From NCBI GenBank assembly GCA_007693585.1, contig REDH01000050.1, positions 1 to 64,000 of the forward strand: DNA of 64,000 nt. Direction: 5' to 3'. The notes below the pieces were generated by a model that was not told where the DNA came from, did no database searches, and saw only the letters and a program-made list of their open reading frames with translations. Shown in pieces: positions 21,650 through 31,344 of the stretch (the first letter of the stretch is position 1; every line of letters begins with the position of its first letter). The DNA comes from Deltaproteobacteria bacterium (GTDB taxonomy: Bacteria > Myxococcota_A > Bradymonadia > REDH01). Position numbers and translations under genes: made by a program.

Positions 21650-21970
21650 CCGGCGGCTGTCCGCTGTTCCCGGGGAGCGCGGGGCGGGTGGGTCGGTGCA
21701 CGCCCTGACCGGTGGCGTCTCCGCAGGGGGACGCCCCGACCGTGAGCTGCGCGGCATCGCGGCAGCGCGCACGCGGGATGGGGGCGCGCACGCGGGATTG
21801 TGTCGGTCCCGATGGGCTCGCCGGCAGGAGGATGAGCCGGGGGGGGCGGCGCGGACGGAGGCACGTGGTGCCGATCCTGCGAGGGGCTTGTCGGTGGTTC
21901 GGCGGGCGACTAGACCTTCGGCGGGCGCCGGGCCCGAGAGAAGGTGTGTCCCCCGCGCGGAGAACTCGCG
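21650..21970. other. Non-coding spacer with imperfect direct repeats
   Basis: About 320 bp without a credible gene. The string ccctgaccgg recurs at the 3' end of the preceding gene and again near 21704, followed by similar sequence (ggcggctgtccgc and ggtggcgtctccgc). A gcgcacgcgggat string occurs twice near 21768-21798. Track ORFs here are out-of-frame extensions of ilvE or shadows. Confidence 0.4.
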
Positions 21971-22894
21971 ATGATCAAGAAGTCCGAATCAATCTGGCTG
22001 GATGGAAAGCTCGTGCCGTGGGACGATGCCAATGTGCACGTCCTCACGCACACGCTGCACTACGGACTCGGGGCGTTCGAGGGCATCCGGTGCTACGAGC
22101 GCGAGGACGGCCGGTCTCAGGTGTTCCGTCTGCGGGAGCACATCCGGCGGCTGGTGGACAGCGCCCGAATGTACACCATGGACGTGCCGTGGAGTCAGGA
22201 GGACCTTGTCCTGGCCTGCAAGGAGACGCTGCGGGCCAATCGGCTGCGCAGCGCATACCTGCGCCCGCTCGTGTTCCTGGGGGATGGGGCGATGGGCCTC
22301 TATGCGCTGAGCAACCCGGTGCGTGTGATGATCGGCGCGTGGGAGTGGGGGGCGTACCTCGGCGACGAGGCGCTGGAGCACGGCATCCGTGCGAAAGTGT
22401 CCTCGTTCACGCGGAATCATCCGAACTCGATGATGTCGAAGGGGAAGATCTGCGGTCACTACGTGAACTCGATCGTGGCGAAGCGGGAGGTGATGGCGGC
22501 GGGTTACCAGGAAGCCATCATGCTGGATCACGAGGGGTACATCTCGGAAGCATCGGGTGAGAACATCTTCATCATCCGGGACGGGGTGGTGAAGACGCCG
22601 CCGTACTCGAGCTCCATCCTCGGCGGGATCACCCGGGACACGGTGGTGCGCCTGCTGAAGGATGCGGGGATTCCGATCCAGTTCTCCCGATTCGCGCGGG
22701 ACGAACTGTATCTGGCCGACGAGGTGTTCATGGTCGGCACCGCGGCGGAGGTGACGCCGGTCCGCGAGGTCGATGACCGCCGTATCGGGGACGGCCGCCG
22801 CGGCGAAATCACCACCCACGTGCAGTCGACCTACTTCGACATCGTGAAGGGCAGCAATTCGGACTACCCGGAGTGGCTGGACTGGGTGGACTGA
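21971..22894 (+). CDS. ilvE: Branched-chain amino acid aminotransferase
   Basis: 307 residues, a class IV PLP aminotransferase that makes or degrades Leu, Ile and Val with glutamate/2-oxoglutarate. Family signatures: HTLHYGLGAFEGIRCY near the N-terminus, the PLP-lysine region GKICGHYVNSIVAKREVMA, then GYISEASGENIFIIRDG and the C-terminal GTAAEVTPVREVD. The spacing matches group I (IlvE) transaminases rather than D-amino-acid transaminases or ADC lyase. ATG 21971 was chosen over the track start 21944 because it begins the usual short leader MIKKSESIWLDGK. It stands alone, with no other ilv or leu genes in the window. Confidence 0.94.
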   Translation: MIKKSESIWLDGKLVPWDDANVHVLTHTLHYGLGAFEGIRCYEREDGRSQVFRLREHIRRLVDSARMYTMDVPWSQEDLVLACKETLRANRLRSAYLRPLVFLGDGAMGLYALSNPVRVMIGAWEWGAYLGDEALEHGIRAKVSSFTRNHPNSMMSKGKICGHYVNSIVAKREVMAAGYQEAIMLDHEGYISEASGENIFIIRDGVVKTPPYSSSILGGITRDTVVRLLKDAGIPIQFSRFARDELYLADEVFMVGTAAEVTPVREVDDRRIGDGRRGEITTHVQSTYFDIVKGSNSDYPEWLDWVD

Positions 22895-23275: not shown

Positions 23276-26200
23276 ATGCATCCGATGCGAATGTCATGGA
23301 CCGACCGGCGATGGAACCCTCTGGTCGCGGTACTCATTCTCCTGCTCGTCTGGGCCTGTGGTGACGACGGGGATGGCTGTGACGGCGCCGATCTCGGCTG
23401 CGATGGCTGCGGCGACGGGGAAGGCTCTGCGGGCCCTCCCTACGTGTTTCCGGACGACGGGCCGATCGTCCCTCAGGGCGTCCAGGTCCGGGTGTCCCAG
23501 TACGGCCTGAGCTTCATCGAGGAGAACTTCGACCAGATCATCGCGCTCGTGCTCGATGACGAGGGAGACGGCGGCCTGACCTTCTGTGTTCCCAACGAAG
23601 GGGCGGTGGGCTTCTCGATCTGCCCGAACCCGGGGACGTGTTCGGATGGTGGAACGGGCTGTGACGTGGACATCATCCTCGAGGATCTCGTGATCAATCC
23701 GCGGGATCCGCAGAGTGCGGCGGAGTCCGGCCGGCTGGAAGTGGAGCTCGTCGTGAGCACGACGAACATTCCGTGGCGTCCGTTGTTGGGCACGTGCCAG
23801 GCACGGCTGCGCGAGATGCCGATCAAGGCGGTGATCACGTTCAATGTCGACGCGCCGCCCCACGAGCGGGTGCACATCCGCATTCCCACGGACGAACTCG
23901 ATTTCGAGGTGCGGACGCGCTACCTGAACCTGAACGCGGGCGGGAGCATCGGGTGCGCCATCGTCGGTGGTCTGGCGGGTTTCTTCGTGAACCTGCTGAG
24001 CGGCACGATCGGCAACCTGATCGTGGATCCGGTCCAGGAGGCGGTGGAGGGGTTCACCTGTGTGACCTGCGAGGATGCCCCGGACTGTCCGGCGGGGAGT
24101 CGCTGCGACGAGGGCATCTGCCGCCTCGATGGCACGGACGACTGTGTGCAGGCGGATCTCGGGCTCGAGACCGAGTTCGACCTGGGTGGATTGCTGGCGG
24201 ACTTTGCGCCGGGGCTCGATGCTCGGCTGGGCATCCTCGCGTATCTGGCGGGATACGCCGACACGGCGGACGGGGGCGGGATCGATCTCTCGGCGCAGAC
24301 CGGTTTCGCCTCGAACCCGAACCTCTGTGTCCCGTATCGGGAGCCGCCGTCCACCCGGCGGGTCATGAAGTCGAGCGTGCTCCACGGGGAGCGGACGCCG
24401 ATGGGCTTCGACTTTGCGGTGGGTCTCGGCCTGTCGAAGAGCAGCCTCGATCTGGCGCTGTGGGCGGCCTACAACTCCGGGGTGCTGTGCCTGAGCATCG
24501 GCGCCGACGAGGTGGAACAGCTCACCACGAGCCTGTTCGCGCTCCTTCTGCAGTCCGTCGGCGAAGTCACGCAGGGGGCGAATTTGCCGCTGCTGTTGCA
24601 GCTCGCCCCGAACCAGCCACCTCATGTCACGATCGGCGAGGGGACCATCGATCGCTCGGGCAGCCAGCCGGTGATCGTCGATCCGCTGCTCAACATCACC
24701 ATCCCCGACCTCGATCTGCACTTCTACACGTGGCTGCACGACCGCTGGGTGAGGCTCTTCGCGCTGAACGTGGACATCGACGTTCCGCTGGGTCTCGATG
24801 TGGACGAGGACAACAACATCATCCCCGTGCTCGGGGATCTGGATGACCTGCTGAGCCGCATCGAGCCCCGGGCCGGTGAGCTCATCCGGCAATCGGACCT
24901 CGACTCGCTCGCGGACCTTCTTCCCGGGCTCATCAGCGGCCTCGCCGGCCCGCTGCTCGGCGATCTCACCGAGGGTTTCGAGATTCCGGATCTTGCCGGC
25001 TTCGAGCTCGTCCTCAACGATGACTCCTTCACCGGGGTCGAGTTCGACGCAGAGCTGGAGAGTCACCGGTTGCTGGGGGTCTTCGCCGACCTTCGCCTGG
25101 CGAGCAGCGCGATGATGATGCCGCACATGACCCGCATCCGGCAGGTGGACGCGTGGATCCCCACCGCGGACGAGATCCGCGTCGCGGTCGCCGAGGCCCG
25201 GTCCGCGGACGAGTCGGTGCCCGTGGAACGCTGGCAGCCCCGGGTCACCCTGCACGTGGATGCCGAGCGTTCCGATGGCACGATTCTTCCGGACGTCGAG
25301 ATGTCCTGGCGCATCGGGGGCGGGTTCTGGTCCATCTGGCACCACGCGCACCCGCTCGAGGTGCGTGATCCTCGTCTCCGTCTGGAGGGGCGTCATGCGA
25401 TCGAGGTCCGGACCCGTCCGGCCGGTGGCGGGAACGCGAGCGTGACGAACGACACGGTGGAGGTGGTCGTCGACTGGACCCCACCGACGATCGAGCTGGA
25501 GGCGCTGGACGGCATGCTGCGCGTTCATGCTCGGGACAACCTGCACAGCGAGGCGGAGCTCACCATGCGCGTCGCGACGGATGATCGCCCGTGGGGAACC
25601 TGGAGCACGATCGATGATGTCCTCGTCGCTGAGTCGGCGGAGCGTGCCCGGGTGCAGGTGCGCGACCCGGCCGGCAACGTCGCCGAGGCAGAAGTCGAGC
25701 TGAAGCGAGCGACCGAGGGTCCGGCCCTGACTGGCGGGGCGAGTGGACCGTCCGCAGCGTCCGACGCGGCGGGGCGCACGGGGTGTTCCGCGAGCGGCGC
25801 TGCGCCCGGCGGATGGCCCGTGGCCCTGTTGCTGCCGTTCGGCCTGCTCATTCTCGCGCGCCGTCGTCGTCTGCTGGGCGTGTTCGCCGCGTTGCTGCTC
25901 GCCCTGGGTGTCGCCGGCTGCGGAGACAAGGGGAGCAAGTCGGGTGGGCCCGAGCCCCCCGAGTGCGACGAGGAGAACCCCTGCCCGACCGGGGAGATCT
26001 GCGAGGACGAGGTGTGCGTGGCGGTCGAGACAGAGCCGGAGCCCTGCGCGGACACCGACCAGTGCGAGGCGGGGCTCGTCTGCGTCAGCGGAGAGTGCGT
26101 CGCGCTCGCCTGCGAGGATGCCGCTGCCTGTGCCGGTGTGAGCTGCGCGGACGGAACCAGCCCCTACTGCGGTGCCGATGGCTGCTACTGTGGCGGCTGC

Positions 26201-27853
26201 AGCGCCGCTTGCGGCGAGGGCGCCTGGTGCTGTGCGGCCACCGGCCAGTGCGCCGACCTGCCGGATCCCTGTGCCGGAACCACCTGCCCCACCGGCCAGC
26301 GTCCCGACATCACGCGTCAGGCCTCCTTCGACACGGGCCTGTGCGACGAGACCGATCCCGGCGCCTGCGAGTGCGTCGACCTCGACCCGCTCCCGCTCGG
26401 CCAGTTCGGATTCTTCCTGGATGCGGCAGCGTCGCCGGACGGCAGCCACGTCCTGCTGAGCGCACGAAGCCGGACCTACCGAGATCTCATGATCGGCTTC
26501 TTCGACGGCGGCGATACCATCGACTGGACCTTCGTCGACGGCCTTCCGGATGGCGGCAACGTCACCGGCGCCCTCGACGGCCCGCGCGGAGGCATCGCCA
26601 CTCCCGGCGGCGATGCCGGAGAGCACTCCTCGATCACCATCGGGGCTGACGGTGCCGCCCACGTCGCCTACTCGGTGTCCCGGTCCGGTGCGCCGCGCGC
26701 CACACTGCGGTACGCACGGGGCGCAGGCGAGAGGCTGGACCGGGAGTGGACCTTCGTCGATGTCGACGAGGACGGCTTCACCGGACGCTACACCCGCACG
26801 CTCATCGACCCCGACGGTCACCCCGTGATCCTCTACAGCGCGATGCGCCTGCGGGATGCCGAGCGTCTCGTCTGGACAAGCGAGCTGCGCATGGCGCGGG
26901 CGTCGACCCCGAGCCCGACCGACAGCGCGGATTTCACCCGCACCGTCCTGCACCGGGTCGACCACGTGGAACCGTGCGCCGGGCGATGCACCGCGAGCGC
27001 CGACAGCTGCCGGCTGGACCTCCAGCTCTGCCAGCCGACGCTCCGTCGCGGCTGCGACCCCTCCTGCGGCGACGAGGAAGCCTGCTTCGACACCGAGGTC
27101 GCCGCCGATCCCGACAACCCGGGCAGTGACGTCGCCACCGAGCCGCGCTGCGCACCGGTCGCCTCCTTCCCGTCCTTCGAACGGCCGGTCGTGGGCACGG
27201 GCATGTACCCGAGCGCCGCCTGGCTCTCCGACGGGCGCATGGTCATCACCTTCTACGACGGAATTCACGGCAACCTGCTCGCCATCGATCTGGCCGCAGA
27301 CGCCGCGGGCAACGGCGAGGAGCCAGGGAACGACGCGCCGGAAGGGCTCCCCGAGGCCCGCATCCTCGACGGGGAAGAGTTGCGGGACGGCGAGGTGGTT
27401 GACCTTGGCGATGTCGGCCGGTTCGCGCACCTCTTCGTGGACGCGGACGACAACGTCTACATCGCCTACATCGACAGCACCCTCGCCGAGCTCCGCGTGT
27501 TCGACCTCACCGCGGGAACCATCTCCACCGTCGACGACGGCATCCGGATCGACGGGGACAGCGTCGCGATCTCCCGCGTGGGCGAGGACGCACGGATCCG
27601 TGAGGTCGGCGGACGGCTCTTCGTGACCTACCACGACACGACGCAGCACGCCCTCCTCGAGAGCCGCCTCGAGGGCGACGGGTGGACGGAGCCGAGCGTC
27701 GTCGCCAGCCGCTTCAACGGTGACGAGTACGACGGGGCCCAGGGCTTCTTCGCCCGCCACGTCCAGACCGCGTCCGGTCGGTTCGTGTTCCACCACCGGA
27801 TGAACCTCCGCGCGTCTCCCATCGTGCGCGATGTCGTCGTCTCCCCGCGCTGA
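23276..27853 (+). CDS. Large envelope protein: two lipoprotein-like halves joined at a MYXO-CTERM-like tail
   Basis: About 1525 residues. Residues 1-28 are a signal peptide ending in LLVWAC; M4 or M6 are alternative starts. The N-terminal half has Asp/Cys-rich and lipid-transfer-like segments, a dickkopf-like CEDAPDCPAGSRCDEGIC and Ig-like strands. It ends in a MYXO-CTERM-like tail: GC (Cys837), a Gly/Ala spacer, hydrophobic WPVALLLPFGLLILA and RRRR (862-865). With no stop codon this runs straight into a second lipoprotein-type signal, LLALGVAGC (Cys882), then Cys-rich repeats (CPTGEICEDEVC, CEAGLVCVSGEC) and a beta-propeller-like C-terminal half (DPDGHPVILYS, DADDNVYIAYID). Either a true fusion or polyprotein, or a lost stop codon. 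Confidence 0.85.
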   Translation: MHPMRMSWTDRRWNPLVAVLILLLVWACGDDGDGCDGADLGCDGCGDGEGSAGPPYVFPDDGPIVPQGVQVRVSQYGLSFIEENFDQIIALVLDDEGDGGLTFCVPNEGAVGFSICPNPGTCSDGGTGCDVDIILEDLVINPRDPQSAAESGRLEVELVVSTTNIPWRPLLGTCQARLREMPIKAVITFNVDAPPHERVHIRIPTDELDFEVRTRYLNLNAGGSIGCAIVGGLAGFFVNLLSGTIGNLIVDPVQEAVEGFTCVTCEDAPDCPAGSRCDEGICRLDGTDDCVQADLGLETEFDLGGLLADFAPGLDARLGILAYLAGYADTADGGGIDLSAQTGFASNPNLCVPYREPPSTRRVMKSSVLHGERTPMGFDFAVGLGLSKSSLDLALWAAYNSGVLCLSIGADEVEQLTTSLFALLLQSVGEVTQGANLPLLLQLAPNQPPHVTIGEGTIDRSGSQPVIVDPLLNITIPDLDLHFYTWLHDRWVRLFALNVDIDVPLGLDVDEDNNIIPVLGDLDDLLSRIEPRAGELIRQSDLDSLADLLPGLISGLAGPLLGDLTEGFEIPDLAGFELVLNDDSFTGVEFDAELESHRLLGVFADLRLASSAMMMPHMTRIRQVDAWIPTADEIRVAVAEARSADESVPVERWQPRVTLHVDAERSDGTILPDVEMSWRIGGGFWSIWHHAHPLEVRDPRLRLEGRHAIEVRTRPAGGGNASVTNDTVEVVVDWTPPTIELEALDGMLRVHARDNLHSEAELTMRVATDDRPWGTWSTIDDVLVAESAERARVQVRDPAGNVAEAEVELKRATEGPALTGGASGPSAASDAAGRTGCSASGAAPGGWPVALLLPFGLLILARRRRLLGVFAALLLALGVAGCGDKGSKSGGPEPPECDEENPCPTGEICEDEVCVAVETEPEPCADTDQCEAGLVCVSGECVALACEDAAACAGVSCADGTSPYCGADGCYCGGCSAACGEGAWCCAATGQCADLPDPCAGTTCPTGQRPDITRQASFDTGLCDETDPGACECVDLDPLPLGQFGFFLDAAASPDGSHVLLSARSRTYRDLMIGFFDGGDTIDWTFVDGLPDGGNVTGALDGPRGGIATPGGDAGEHSSITIGADGAAHVAYSVSRSGAPRATLRYARGAGERLDREWTFVDVDEDGFTGRYTRTLIDPDGHPVILYSAMRLRDAERLVWTSELRMARASTPSPTDSADFTRTVLHRVDHVEPCAGRCTASADSCRLDLQLCQPTLRRGCDPSCGDEEACFDTEVAADPDNPGSDVATEPRCAPVASFPSFERPVVGTGMYPSAAWLSDGRMVITFYDGIHGNLLAIDLAADAAGNGEEPGNDAPEGLPEARILDGEELRDGEVVDLGDVGRFAHLFVDADDNVYIAYIDSTLAELRVFDLTAGTISTVDDGIRIDGDSVAISRVGEDARIREVGGRLFVTYHDTTQHALLESRLEGDGWTEPSVVASRFNGDEYDGAQGFFARHVQTASGRFVFHHRMNLRASPIVRDVVVSPR

Positions 27854-27872
27854 GCCCCTGGAAGGAACGCCC

Positions 27873-29798
27873 GTGACCCCTACCACCGTGTGGCGGCTGC
27901 CGGGGCTCACCCCGGATCGGCGCGACACCGGACCGGCCTGGCTGCACCAGCTCATCCATGCCGACGAGTCCCGGCTCGCATCGTCGTTCGCCGATCTGGC
28001 CCTCGCGCTGCGTGCCGATCCGGGGCTTCGCGAGTCCGTGGCCTCGCTCGCCGGCGCTCCGGTCGCCGAAGTCGCCGCCTCCCCATTCGCCTTGCGCGCG
28101 TGCGCGTGGGCCGTCAGCGAGGGCTTCTTCTCCGTCGCCCACGAGACCCGGATGCCCATTCGGTGGCCCGAGCCGCTTCGCGGCGGATCCGCGGTCGACG
28201 ACCCGCTTCACGACACGTGGGACGAGGGGCGCCTCCACATCGGCAAGTACCAGTCCTTCCTCCAGGACGAGCCCCTCGTCACCCGGAACCCGGACCTCCA
28301 CGCCAAGTGGACGCCCCACGAGCTGCTGCACCGCGTGATGCGGTTTCTCTGGCGGCCCGGCGTTTCGCTTCGCTCCCTCCACCATGGCGCCCGACTCAAC
28401 GAGCTGCTCCCCGTGGTCCTGTGGTACGGCCTCGACGAGGTGCTCCGCCTCGACGGGCGACCCTTCCGGCGGTCCACAGCGCCCCTCGAGCCCGAGGCCA
28501 CCGATGACCGCGTCCACTGGTGGACCCTCGCCCCCGCAGGTCTGGTCGACCGCGCCCGTCCCGAGTTGCACGCCTTTCGAGCCGGCCTCGACCACTACCG
28601 GCACGAGATGCAGGCCATCTCACGCGGCATCGCCTCCAGCGCCGTGGTCTCCGTGCCTCATCCCTTCCTCGACGCCGCCAGCGATGCGACCGCCTACGTC
28701 GTGGGCCATGGCCGCCGCCTGCGCTCGCCCACGGTCGCCAGGCTCCTCACCACCCTTTACCGGCCTGGCCGCGACCGGGACGAAGACCCCCGTGCCGCCT
28801 TCGAACGCGTTCGCACCGGCCTCGCCACCCTCCTCTTCGACGAGATCGTCCTCGACGTCGCGCTCGCGCGCAGCCGCGCCTCCGCCCGCATTCTGCAGGA
28901 CTGGCTTCATCGCAGCGCTCACGCCGTCACCTCCGAGCGACACCCCGTCCTCGAACTGTTGCCGGACGCCGCCACCGACATCGACCGGGCGCTCGACCAC
29001 GCCGACCCCGTCGACCTGGACGCATGGCGGCGCCGCCTCGAGGTGGCCCTCTCGTCCTCCGCTGGCACGGTGCTCGCTTCGGGACTGCCCACCACGACTC
29101 CCACGCCGCTCGCCATCGCTCGCCTCGGGGAGGGGCTGGCCTCTTGCCTGCCCGCAACCCGCCTGTGGCTGTCGCGCCAGGAGCTCCTCGACTCCGCCCT
29201 GCGCGAGTTCCTGCAGTCTCCGGAGTTCGCGCGGCGGCGAAGCCTCCCGATCCGCTTCCGGGACTGGCTCGTCCGGTCCGCCCTCGACCCCGTGGCGGAA
29301 GCCCTCGCGGCATTCGAGCAGTCCCTCCTCACCCTCCCCTCGGGCGACGATGCAGCCGAGTTCCTCGCTCTTTCCCCCGAGGAGATCGACGATCCCGAGC
29401 GCGTCGAGGTGCGGGCCTCGGACGCCTTCGTCCTTCACGTCTCGCCGATCGATGTCGCTGCGCTTCACCAGGCGCTCCTCGAGGACTCCCGGCGGGAGCA
29501 TCCCCTCCCCGCGGTCACCCGTCGGGAGAGTCCCATGGTGCTCGGCCGTCGCGGCGGAGAGATCGCGGCCGTCGCGTTGACCCCTCCCATCGCCGCCGCC
29601 TTCGAGGCGCTTCAGCGGGAGCCGGACCTCCTGCCTCACTGGATGCATCGCCTCGAGCAGGCCGTGACGGACTCCGCCACGGACCCTGGTGCATCGGACC
29701 ACCCGGCGGACGACGAAGCCTGGATGGACGAGCTCGTCGAGGCTGGGGCCGTGGTGCTTTGCCCCATCTGGGACGGCGCCGATCTCCGCCCGGCGTGA
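27873..29798 (+). CDS. Unknown protein with HExxH zinc-peptidase-like motif
   Basis: 641 residues from GTG 27873, preferred because GGAAGGAA lies about 5 bases upstream; the track start 27831 would overlap the preceding gene. No signal peptide or membrane segment. WTPHELLHRVMRF carries HExxH (residues 149-153), and a Glu 24 residues after its second His (LNELLP) could be the third zinc ligand, a gluzincin-like pattern. The region is His-rich (DPLHDTW, HAKW, SLHHGARLNE). The rest is helical, Arg/Ala/Leu/Asp-rich, with an acidic C-terminus ending VVLCPIWDGADLRPA. I do not recognise the family, and peptidase activity is only inferred from the motif. It lies 20 bp after the large lipoprotein gene, so the two may be co-transcribed. 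Confidence 0.75.
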   Translation: MTPTTVWRLPGLTPDRRDTGPAWLHQLIHADESRLASSFADLALALRADPGLRESVASLAGAPVAEVAASPFALRACAWAVSEGFFSVAHETRMPIRWPEPLRGGSAVDDPLHDTWDEGRLHIGKYQSFLQDEPLVTRNPDLHAKWTPHELLHRVMRFLWRPGVSLRSLHHGARLNELLPVVLWYGLDEVLRLDGRPFRRSTAPLEPEATDDRVHWWTLAPAGLVDRARPELHAFRAGLDHYRHEMQAISRGIASSAVVSVPHPFLDAASDATAYVVGHGRRLRSPTVARLLTTLYRPGRDRDEDPRAAFERVRTGLATLLFDEIVLDVALARSRASARILQDWLHRSAHAVTSERHPVLELLPDAATDIDRALDHADPVDLDAWRRRLEVALSSSAGTVLASGLPTTTPTPLAIARLGEGLASCLPATRLWLSRQELLDSALREFLQSPEFARRRSLPIRFRDWLVRSALDPVAEALAAFEQSLLTLPSGDDAAEFLALSPEEIDDPERVEVRASDAFVLHVSPIDVAALHQALLEDSRREHPLPAVTRRESPMVLGRRGGEIAAVALTPPIAAAFEALQREPDLLPHWMHRLEQAVTDSATDPGASDHPADDEAWMDELVEAGAVVLCPIWDGADLRPA

Positions 29799-29826: not shown

Positions 29827-31344
29827 CTATGCGCCTTGTCGCTCGAATCGAGCGACTGTCTCGACGTGTGCGGTCTGGGGAAACTGATCCACCGGCGTGG
29901 CCCGAACGAGCGACCATCCCCTGTCACGCAGCAGCGCTGCATCCCGCGCGAGAGCCTCGGGGTTGCAGGACACGTAGACGAGGCGCCGGGCGGCAAAGGC
30001 GGCCACGTGGGCCAGGGCCTCCCCCTGGAGGCCGGCGCGCGGAGGATCCACGACGATGACGTCGACCTCCTCCTGCAGCGACGCCACCGCCCCCTGCTCC
30101 AGCAGGGTCCCCACATCGCCCTCGAGAAAGGAGACGTTCGCAAGGCCGTTTCTCGTTGCCCCGGCCTCCGCGTTGCGCACGGCGTCGGGCTGGAGCTCCA
30201 TCCCGACGACCCGCTCCGCATGGTTCGCCAGCACGAGTGCGATCGTGCCCGTGCCGCAGTAGAGGTCGAGCGCCACGCGCGCGCCGTCTCCTTCCAGGAG
30301 CCCCGACTCCTTCAGGACGAGCGCGTAGATCAGCTCCGCTGCGGCCGGGTTGGGCTGGAAGAAGGCACGCGGGTGGATCGCGAAGTCGAGGGCAGCGGTC
30401 CCGGGAACCTCGAGGATCTCGCGCAGGGTCGTCGTGCCCTCGAGATGACGCTCGATCAGCCTCGTGGGTCGGCCCCGCTGCGCATCGTGGCGGGTCCACC
30501 AGATCGACGTGAACGGCGCTCCAGCCTCTCGCCCGAGATCGGCGAGCCGTCTCACCACGGTCTCGGCAACCTCCTCGGCCGCGTGTTCTCCGCCGAGGAG
30601 CTTCGCGCGAGGCGCCGCCGTGGTGACGAGCTCCATCATCCGCTCATCCGTGCGGCGGCCTTCGCGGGTCATCACGTGCCGCAGCCAGCCGTCCGGGGTG
30701 CGTGGGCCGAAGGGTTCCAATCCCGTCCCGGTCAGCCAGTCGTTGACGCGTCCGAGCCAGGTCGAGAGCTCCGTCGAGACGAGCAGGCACTCGCGCAGGG
30801 CCAGCACATCGTGCCGATAGCCGGGTGGGTGCAGCCCGACCCGGGGGCGCCCGTCTTCGCCGGCCGCGAAGCTGAACTCCATCTTGTTCCGGTAGCGCCA
30901 GTCGTCCGGGGGCGGAACGACAGCCTGGACGACCGCGGGGTCGAGTCCCCGGGCTTCGAAGAGCGCGCGAAGTCGGTTGCCCTTGTGCCTGCGCTGGTCG
31001 GCTGCGTCGATGTGCTGCAGGCTGCAGCCCCCGCATGTCTCGCCGGGAAGGCGCCACGGGTGGGCGTGCGCGCATCGGGGTGGAACGCGCTCGGCGGAGG
31101 GCGCCTCGAGTCGAACGACGCAACCGGAGAGCAGGTCTCGGTGCCGGCGGGTGATGCGGACCTCCGCGCGCTCGCCGGGCAGGGCTCCCGGCACGGCGAC
31201 CCGGAAGACCCGCGGGGTGGCCTGCGGTCCGACGAGGAGGTGCAGCCGTGCCGTGGCGTCGCCCCGGGCGTCGAGGGCGTCGAACGTCAGGGGGAACGTG
31301 TCGCCGGGGCGGGGAGCGCGGGGGTGGTGGGCCGGGTCGCTCAC
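29827..31344 (-). CDS. rlmD: 23S rRNA (uracil-5-)-methyltransferase, RlmD/TrmA family
   Basis: 505 residues from a GTG start. Domain order: an N-terminal TRAM-like beta barrel for RNA binding, an iron-sulfur cysteine cluster (CAHAHPWRLPGETCGGCSLQH), then a SAM-dependent methyltransferase domain with DLYCGTGTIAL, VVDPPRAG and the catalytic-cysteine motif YVSCNP. Enzymes of this family methylate C5 of a uridine in 23S rRNA or tRNA. Whether the target is U1939 (RlmD), U747 (RlmC) or another site cannot be told from sequence alone. It is the last gene of the zinc-uptake transcript, 5 bp after the DUF493 gene. Confidence 0.88.
   Translation of the reverse strand: MSDPAHHPRAPRPGDTFPLTFDALDARGDATARLHLLVGPQATPRVFRVAVPGALPGERAEVRITRRHRDLLSGCVVRLEAPSAERVPPRCAHAHPWRLPGETCGGCSLQHIDAADQRRHKGNRLRALFEARGLDPAVVQAVVPPPDDWRYRNKMEFSFAAGEDGRPRVGLHPPGYRHDVLALRECLLVSTELSTWLGRVNDWLTGTGLEPFGPRTPDGWLRHVMTREGRRTDERMMELVTTAAPRAKLLGGEHAAEEVAETVVRRLADLGREAGAPFTSIWWTRHDAQRGRPTRLIERHLEGTTTLREILEVPGTAALDFAIHPRAFFQPNPAAAELIYALVLKESGLLEGDGARVALDLYCGTGTIALVLANHAERVVGMELQPDAVRNAEAGATRNGLANVSFLEGDVGTLLEQGAVASLQEEVDVIVVDPPRAGLQGEALAHVAAFAARRLVYVSCNPEALARDAALLRDRGWSLVRATPVDQFPQTAHVETVARFERQGA

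Follow-up and report, generated by a model that had tools for sequence, protein, structure and literature searches.

The open reading frame at 23276-27853 (+) of the window, the whole 64,000-nucleotide stretch of DNA analysed here, raises the question of whether a single chain can give rise to two separately anchored lipoproteins. The initial annotation had described it as two lipoprotein-type units on one chain with a MYXO-CTERM tag between them, and had considered both a real polyprotein and a recently lost stop codon.

One frame with two lipoprotein signals around an internal MYXO-CTERM tag

This description held, because the 1525-aa frame is single and open, without internal stops (0 found), and contains the tag followed by the lipobox GVAGC882. 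The features are listed below, with the parts before and after the junction called half 1 and half 2.

23276..27853, + strand: fused ORF, 1525 aa; homologous frames in 45 of 58 relatives
23213, + strand: alternative GTG start of the fused ORF
23276..23359, + strand: first lipoprotein signal peptide RRWNPLVAVLILLLVWAC, lipobox Cys28; Cys28 in 28/28 aligned homologues
23438..25105, + strand: predicted BPI/LBP/CETP-like (tandem TULIP) region, approximate limits; AlphaFold2 mean pLDDT 83, Foldseek
25223..25720, + strand: predicted beta-rich, Ig/fibronectin-III-like region before the tag, approximate limits; model secondary structure, lower-ranked Foldseek Ig/FN3 matches
25772..25870, + strand: internal MYXO-CTERM tag with Cys837 (25784-25786), helix and RRRR (25859-25870); TIGR03901, Cys837 in 30/30
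25859..25921, + strand: second lipoprotein signal, with RRRR shared as n-region and lipobox GVAGC, Cys882 (25919-25921); Cys882 in 30/30
25922..26380, + strand: Cys-rich region of half 2, weak DUF7107, approximate limits; PF23416, about 20 conserved Cys
26381..27850, + strand: predicted beta-propeller of half 2, approximate limits; AlphaFold2 mean pLDDT 85, Foldseek

Residues 1-28 form a lipoprotein signal ending in VWAC28, and half 1 thus begins with an N-terminal signal peptide as MYXO-CTERM proteins do. The tag covers residues 833-865, with RRRR at 862-865, and its invariant Cys, transmembrane helix and Arg-rich end are the MYXO-CTERM signature. The junction reads GCSASGAAPGGWPVALLLPFGLLILA-RRRR-LLGVFAALLLALGVAGC882, with neither a stop nor a linker between the tag and the second signal. 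In that signal (RRRRLLGVFAALLLALGVAGC), the positive n-region, the hydrophobic h-region and the lipobox Cys are all present, and it lies inside the fused ORF, not at an N-terminus as it does in the split homologues L082, L083 and L085. Likewise, the tag is not at the extreme C-terminus, as 660 residues follow it, and from its sequence we file the fused ORF as an internal-tag variant of MYXO-CTERM, like MXAN_5598.

The NCBIfam model of MYXO-CTERM, TIGR03901, scored 20.4 bits on half 1 at residues 833-865 (cut-off 20), 26.1 bits for the tag in the genome scan and 25.6 bits with the junction alone, and it matched 16 of 26 family hairpins at E<=0.01. Since both signals were found in the junction, the earlier proposal that one hydrophobic hairpin would be able to serve two processing systems is borne out at the level of its motifs.

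Predicted folds of the two halves and gene neighbours

Half 1 was modelled as a BPI/LBP/CETP-type lipid-binding protein. The AlphaFold2 model shows a two-domain boomerang fold, and Foldseek returned human BPI (1ewf, E 6.5e-17, TM-score 0.61 by target length) as the best match, followed by LBP and CETP. The Pfam LBP_BPI_CETP families matched only one member each of 29, and weakly (PF02886, E 0.0066; PF01273, E 0.014), so the relation of half 1 to BPI rests on the fold; the fused ORF protein itself had no LBP_BPI_CETP match, and searching the PDB with a sequence profile yielded no informative match. The likeness to the animal two-domain TULIP proteins BPI, LBP and CETP is therefore one of predicted fold, and unlike them half 1 is bacterial, Cys-rich and has a predicted lipid anchor at both ends. 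A BPI/LBP/CETP-like fold is thus predicted in a bacterial, putatively surface-located lipoprotein, apparently lipid-anchored at Cys28 and Cys837, and such a double-anchored protein in a predatory, social and outer-membrane-exchanging phylum may point to the handling of lipids or LPS at the surface.

Half 2 was modelled as a Cys-rich region followed by a beta-propeller near glycosidase and sialidase propellers, a statement about fold that claims no enzymatic activity. DUF7107 (PF23416) matched the Cys-rich region with E 1.3e-4 and 22.6 bits, under the cut-off of 24.6, and Foldseek with the half 2 model gave 5muk (E 7.4e-11) plus sialidase-like propellers.

The next gene, 27831-29798 (+), overlaps the end of the fused ORF by 23 nt and may be co-transcribed with it; it had no NCBIfam match. 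The other neighbours are ordinary, namely the branched-chain aminotransferase IlvE at 21944-22894 (+) and the 23S rRNA methyltransferase RlmD at 29827-31344 (-).

The fusion is conserved across Myxococcota

Homologues were found in 45 of the 58 related genomes, at about 30-38% identity and nearly all as one stop-free frame, indicating that the frame is real. In a draw across the phylum, 56 of 141 Myxococcota genomes matched, including families outside the class, and a profile search of contigs with six alignment rows gave 11 loci titled uncultured delta-proteobacteria, Myxococcota and similar. Among the 57 homologues read, the fusion was present in 52, from many Myxococcota families, and 5 were split. 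In the tree of the 57 N-halves, 51 had been scored as fused and six as 'N only'; L086 was then moved to the fused group, as its frame reaches the contig end and includes the hairpin. Judged from these sequences, the fusion is old and phylum-wide. The source genome also carries two more fused paralogues in tandem (L102, G000:C220:13000-25500), both with a MYXO-CTERM/lipobox hairpin.

Within the junction, Cys837 and Cys882 are the only invariant columns (30/30 in one alignment, 26/26 in another). The Arg cluster is nearly invariant, and hairpin columns have a mean identity of 26% among 30 aligned homologues. An invariant Cys pair in a variable surrounding is the pattern expected if selection acts on both putative processing signals and on little else. 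The length of the cytoplasmic loop ranges from a few residues (RRRR in the fused ORF) to dozens (L088, L097). A strict lipobox-signal pattern caught the hairpin in 49 of the 52 fused homologues, and the remaining three, with longer loops, were recognized by eye. As a control for chance, the same pattern was counted outside the hairpin and had 8 rows over roughly 65,000 residues: the hairpins of L088 and L097, two of the three recognized by eye, accounted for four, one N-terminal signal of L088 for three, and one site was unexplained.

Some members of the family have weak lipoboxes (PPAC, FGSGC). Furthermore, Asp is found at +2 after the second Cys in the hairpins of L006, L007, L011, L015, L017, L019, L021, L026 and L030. 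Asp at +2 is an inner-membrane retention signal for lipoproteins in E. coli, and its presence in several relatives makes the location of half 2 uncertain.

Natural two-gene forms

In the five split homologues (L082, L083, L084, L085 and L087), the N-half gene stops after the Arg cluster and thus ends with a complete terminal MYXO-CTERM. Separate adjacent genes, which the initial annotation had suggested looking for in relatives, were found in three of the five (L082, L083 and L085), where the adjoining second gene has a normal lipoprotein signal. The second gene begins 23 nt downstream in L082 (MSKTRLALLAALAALAFGC), shares an ATGA with the first in L083 (MKRALVLCLALLGC), and has a frame overlapping that of the first in L085 (MNARTCLVGALALTLAGVANPGC). 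The L082 split could in principle be an assembly frameshift, and the gene overlaps in L083 and L085 seem ordinary. As the halves exist as two lipoproteins in these relatives, the joint is a boundary between two complete lipoproteins.

In the N-half tree, each split row is found at a tip of its own, with fused rows on either side of the midpoint root; because the root is a midpoint and not inferred, the tree fits gain and loss of the fusion alike. The expectation that relatives would have the halves as two genes, with a stop close to the joint, came true for a few scattered tips among fused ones, and its corollary, a stop missed in the present sequence, did not.

Internal tags in unrelated proteins

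Among the 30 MYXO-CTERM tags read in the source genome, 24 were terminal (ending within 32 residues of the C-terminus) and 6 internal. In the relatives, internal tags made up 2 of the 17 read in G010 and 1 of the 18 in G036; a further 7 were read in G047, where the sampling favoured long frames, so that no fraction is given. All 16 internal tags from the four genomes, in unrelated proteins, run directly into an in-frame signal peptide, which by eye is of the lipobox type in 10 and of the SPase I type in 6.

Several of these frames have an unusual layout. One (L105, G000:C99) contains a matrixin metalloprotease, MYXO-CTERM, an SPase I-type signal and SpoIID. Two with very Cys-rich repeats (L103, G000:C59; L104, G000:C148) carry a MYXO-CTERM/lipobox joint inside the chain and end in another MYXO-CTERM. 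A 3056-aa frame (L141 and L142, G047:C1:4109307-4111800) has two internal MYXO-CTERM/lipobox joints and is potentially three lipoproteins.

We lean towards the view that an exit tag with an entry signal of the lipobox or SPase I type directly behind it is a general polyprotein device of Myxococcota, giving at least two separately anchored surface proteins in a fixed ratio. If so, the fused ORF family would rather plausibly be an ancient case of it, with a BPI/LBP-like lipid-binding protein and a propeller partner on display. It is unusual for a bacterial polyprotein to give rise to several surface proteins, each with its own anchor. For annotation, the substantial share of internal MYXO-CTERM tags (6/30 in the source genome) is a warning, because with such tags inside the chain, predictions of topology, signal peptides and surface proteins miss half of the products.

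Proposed maturation of the chain

The enzyme acting on MYXO-CTERM is reported to be myxosortase, a glutamic intramembrane protease of the CPBP family, and TraA MYXO-CTERM is cleaved by MrtX in a cysteine-dependent manner; lipidation of the tag Cys by an Lgt-like enzyme is a proposal of the same authors (PMC11980579). The rhombosortase-type protease named in the initial annotation is thus replaced by myxosortase, which the source genome carries in the MrtP form (327.5 bits, cut-off 250). LspA, two Lgt and GspD of the T2SS (508 bits) are also present.

With these signals and enzymes, we consider it probable that the fused ORF encodes a secreted polyprotein that would be cut by LspA before Cys882 and by myxosortase after Cys837, leaving two anchored proteins, with the hairpin discarded. 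Sec would export half 1, with its lipoprotein signal, BPI/LBP-like domains and Ig-like region, until the MYXO-CTERM helix acts as stop-transfer and the Arg cluster stays in the cytoplasm; the second helix would take the Arg cluster as its n-region, so that export restarts with half 2. In this topology, one Arg cluster would suit both helices because of the positive-inside rule. Cys882 would be lipidated by Lgt, and the LspA cut before it would alone be enough to part the halves, whereas Cys837 would be lipidated in an Lgt-like step and MrtP would cut after it, freeing half 1. The products would be a BPI-like lipoprotein lipidated at both termini, an equal amount of a Cys-rich beta-propeller lipoprotein, and a waste hairpin of about 45 residues; the two lipoproteins may be located at the surface and function jointly. 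The fusion would fix the ratio of the halves at 1:1, and the overlapping split genes probably do likewise through coupling. Should the cut prove real, a single helical hairpin would be processed by two membrane systems, myxosortase and LspA, and would also be a natural substrate for testing the Lgt lipidation of MYXO-CTERM cysteines, a point left open by PMC11980579. Against two cuts, the MYXO-CTERM score of the fused ORF is near the cut-off, some lipoboxes are weak, and an uncut, hairpin-anchored protein would give much the same conservation.

Cleavage by LspA at the internal lipobox only, with the MYXO-CTERM part remaining as an uncut two-helix anchor of half 1, would part the halves without an unusual myxosortase substrate, and some tags in the family are weak or have no match to the MYXO-CTERM model. 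We regard this as unlikely, because Cys837 is kept in 30/30 although the tag otherwise varies, and a mere anchor would not need the Cys; in addition, the split relatives retain a complete terminal tag, and the genome encodes MrtP. That the chain stays whole, with both halves exported and still linked through a membrane-embedded hydrophobic hairpin, agrees with the single frame seen nearly everywhere, and cleavage is invisible from sequence alone; nevertheless, the invariance of both processing cysteines, the two-gene forms with both halves complete at tips scattered over the tree, and the recurrence of the tag-then-signal joint in unrelated proteins, SPase I-type signals included, make it decidedly improbable.

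Internal translation initiation near the joint might also, or mainly, make half 2, as the genes of split relatives overlap and are probably coupled, and a start codon giving a signal-like N-terminus was found in 22 of the 46 parsed hairpins. A Shine-Dalgarno-like site was present in just 1 of the 46 and absent from the fused ORF, where GTG 25880 would yield a signal without positive charge and no usable internal start was found near the joint, so we give this route very little weight. An artefact, either a stop missed or a frame shifted in the metagenome assembly (223 contigs) or a stop lost recently as had been suggested, has a negligible chance despite the existing two-gene forms, being ruled out by the same ancient, phylum-wide fusion (52/57) in about 50 homologues from separate assemblies at 30-38% identity, including the single-contig G010, G036 and G047, and by the two fused paralogues in the source genome.

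Comparison with known systems

Internal MYXO-CTERM tags are already known as a rarity, exemplified by MXAN_5598 of Myxococcus xanthus, for which processing and anchoring of the N-terminal part have been proposed (PMC11980579). MXAN_5598 resembles the fused ORF in being one ORF with an internal MYXO-CTERM between two exported parts, but its second part is an outer-membrane beta-barrel with an OmpA domain and was called rare, atypical and a possible gene fusion (PMC11980579); in contrast, the second part of the fused ORF is a lipoprotein, the family is phylum-wide, and the joint is repeated in several unrelated proteins. The TraA/TraB pair of myxobacteria (PMC11980579) has a MYXO-CTERM gene that overlaps the gene after it, which encodes an exported protein, as in L083 and L085; the pair differs in consisting of two genes of other protein families, and TraB is of the OmpA type and not a lipoprotein. 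As far as the literature found shows, the ancient two-lipoprotein family, its invariant Cys pair, the naturally split homologues and the regularity with which a signal follows the tag are new.

A literature search on internal signal peptides and FbcH gave no useful paper. The cytochrome b/c1 precursor FbcH of Bradyrhizobium is a polyprotein split by signal peptidase at an internal signal peptide. It differs in using SPase I and in its polytopic first half, with no sorting tag and no lipobox.

By name, NF033207 (midcut-by-XrtH) and NF058595 (lipo-invert tail) are also similar, the one to a mid-protein cut and the other to a lipobox-like anchor, and there were weak matches to some of the hairpins; XrtH, unlike myxosortase, is an exosortase. 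A literature search on 'lipo-invert', internal lipobox and midcut/XrtH found no paper. Membership in NF058595 was rejected, as the scores of 17.5-23.2 bits compare with a cut-off of 37 and were below it in all 38 genomes searched. Those NF058595 matches that were inspected in relatives were mostly like ordinary lipoprotein signals, except L031 (G032:C351), in which the best 'lipo-invert' match among the relatives is a MYXO-CTERM/lipobox hairpin in a 1021-aa frame.
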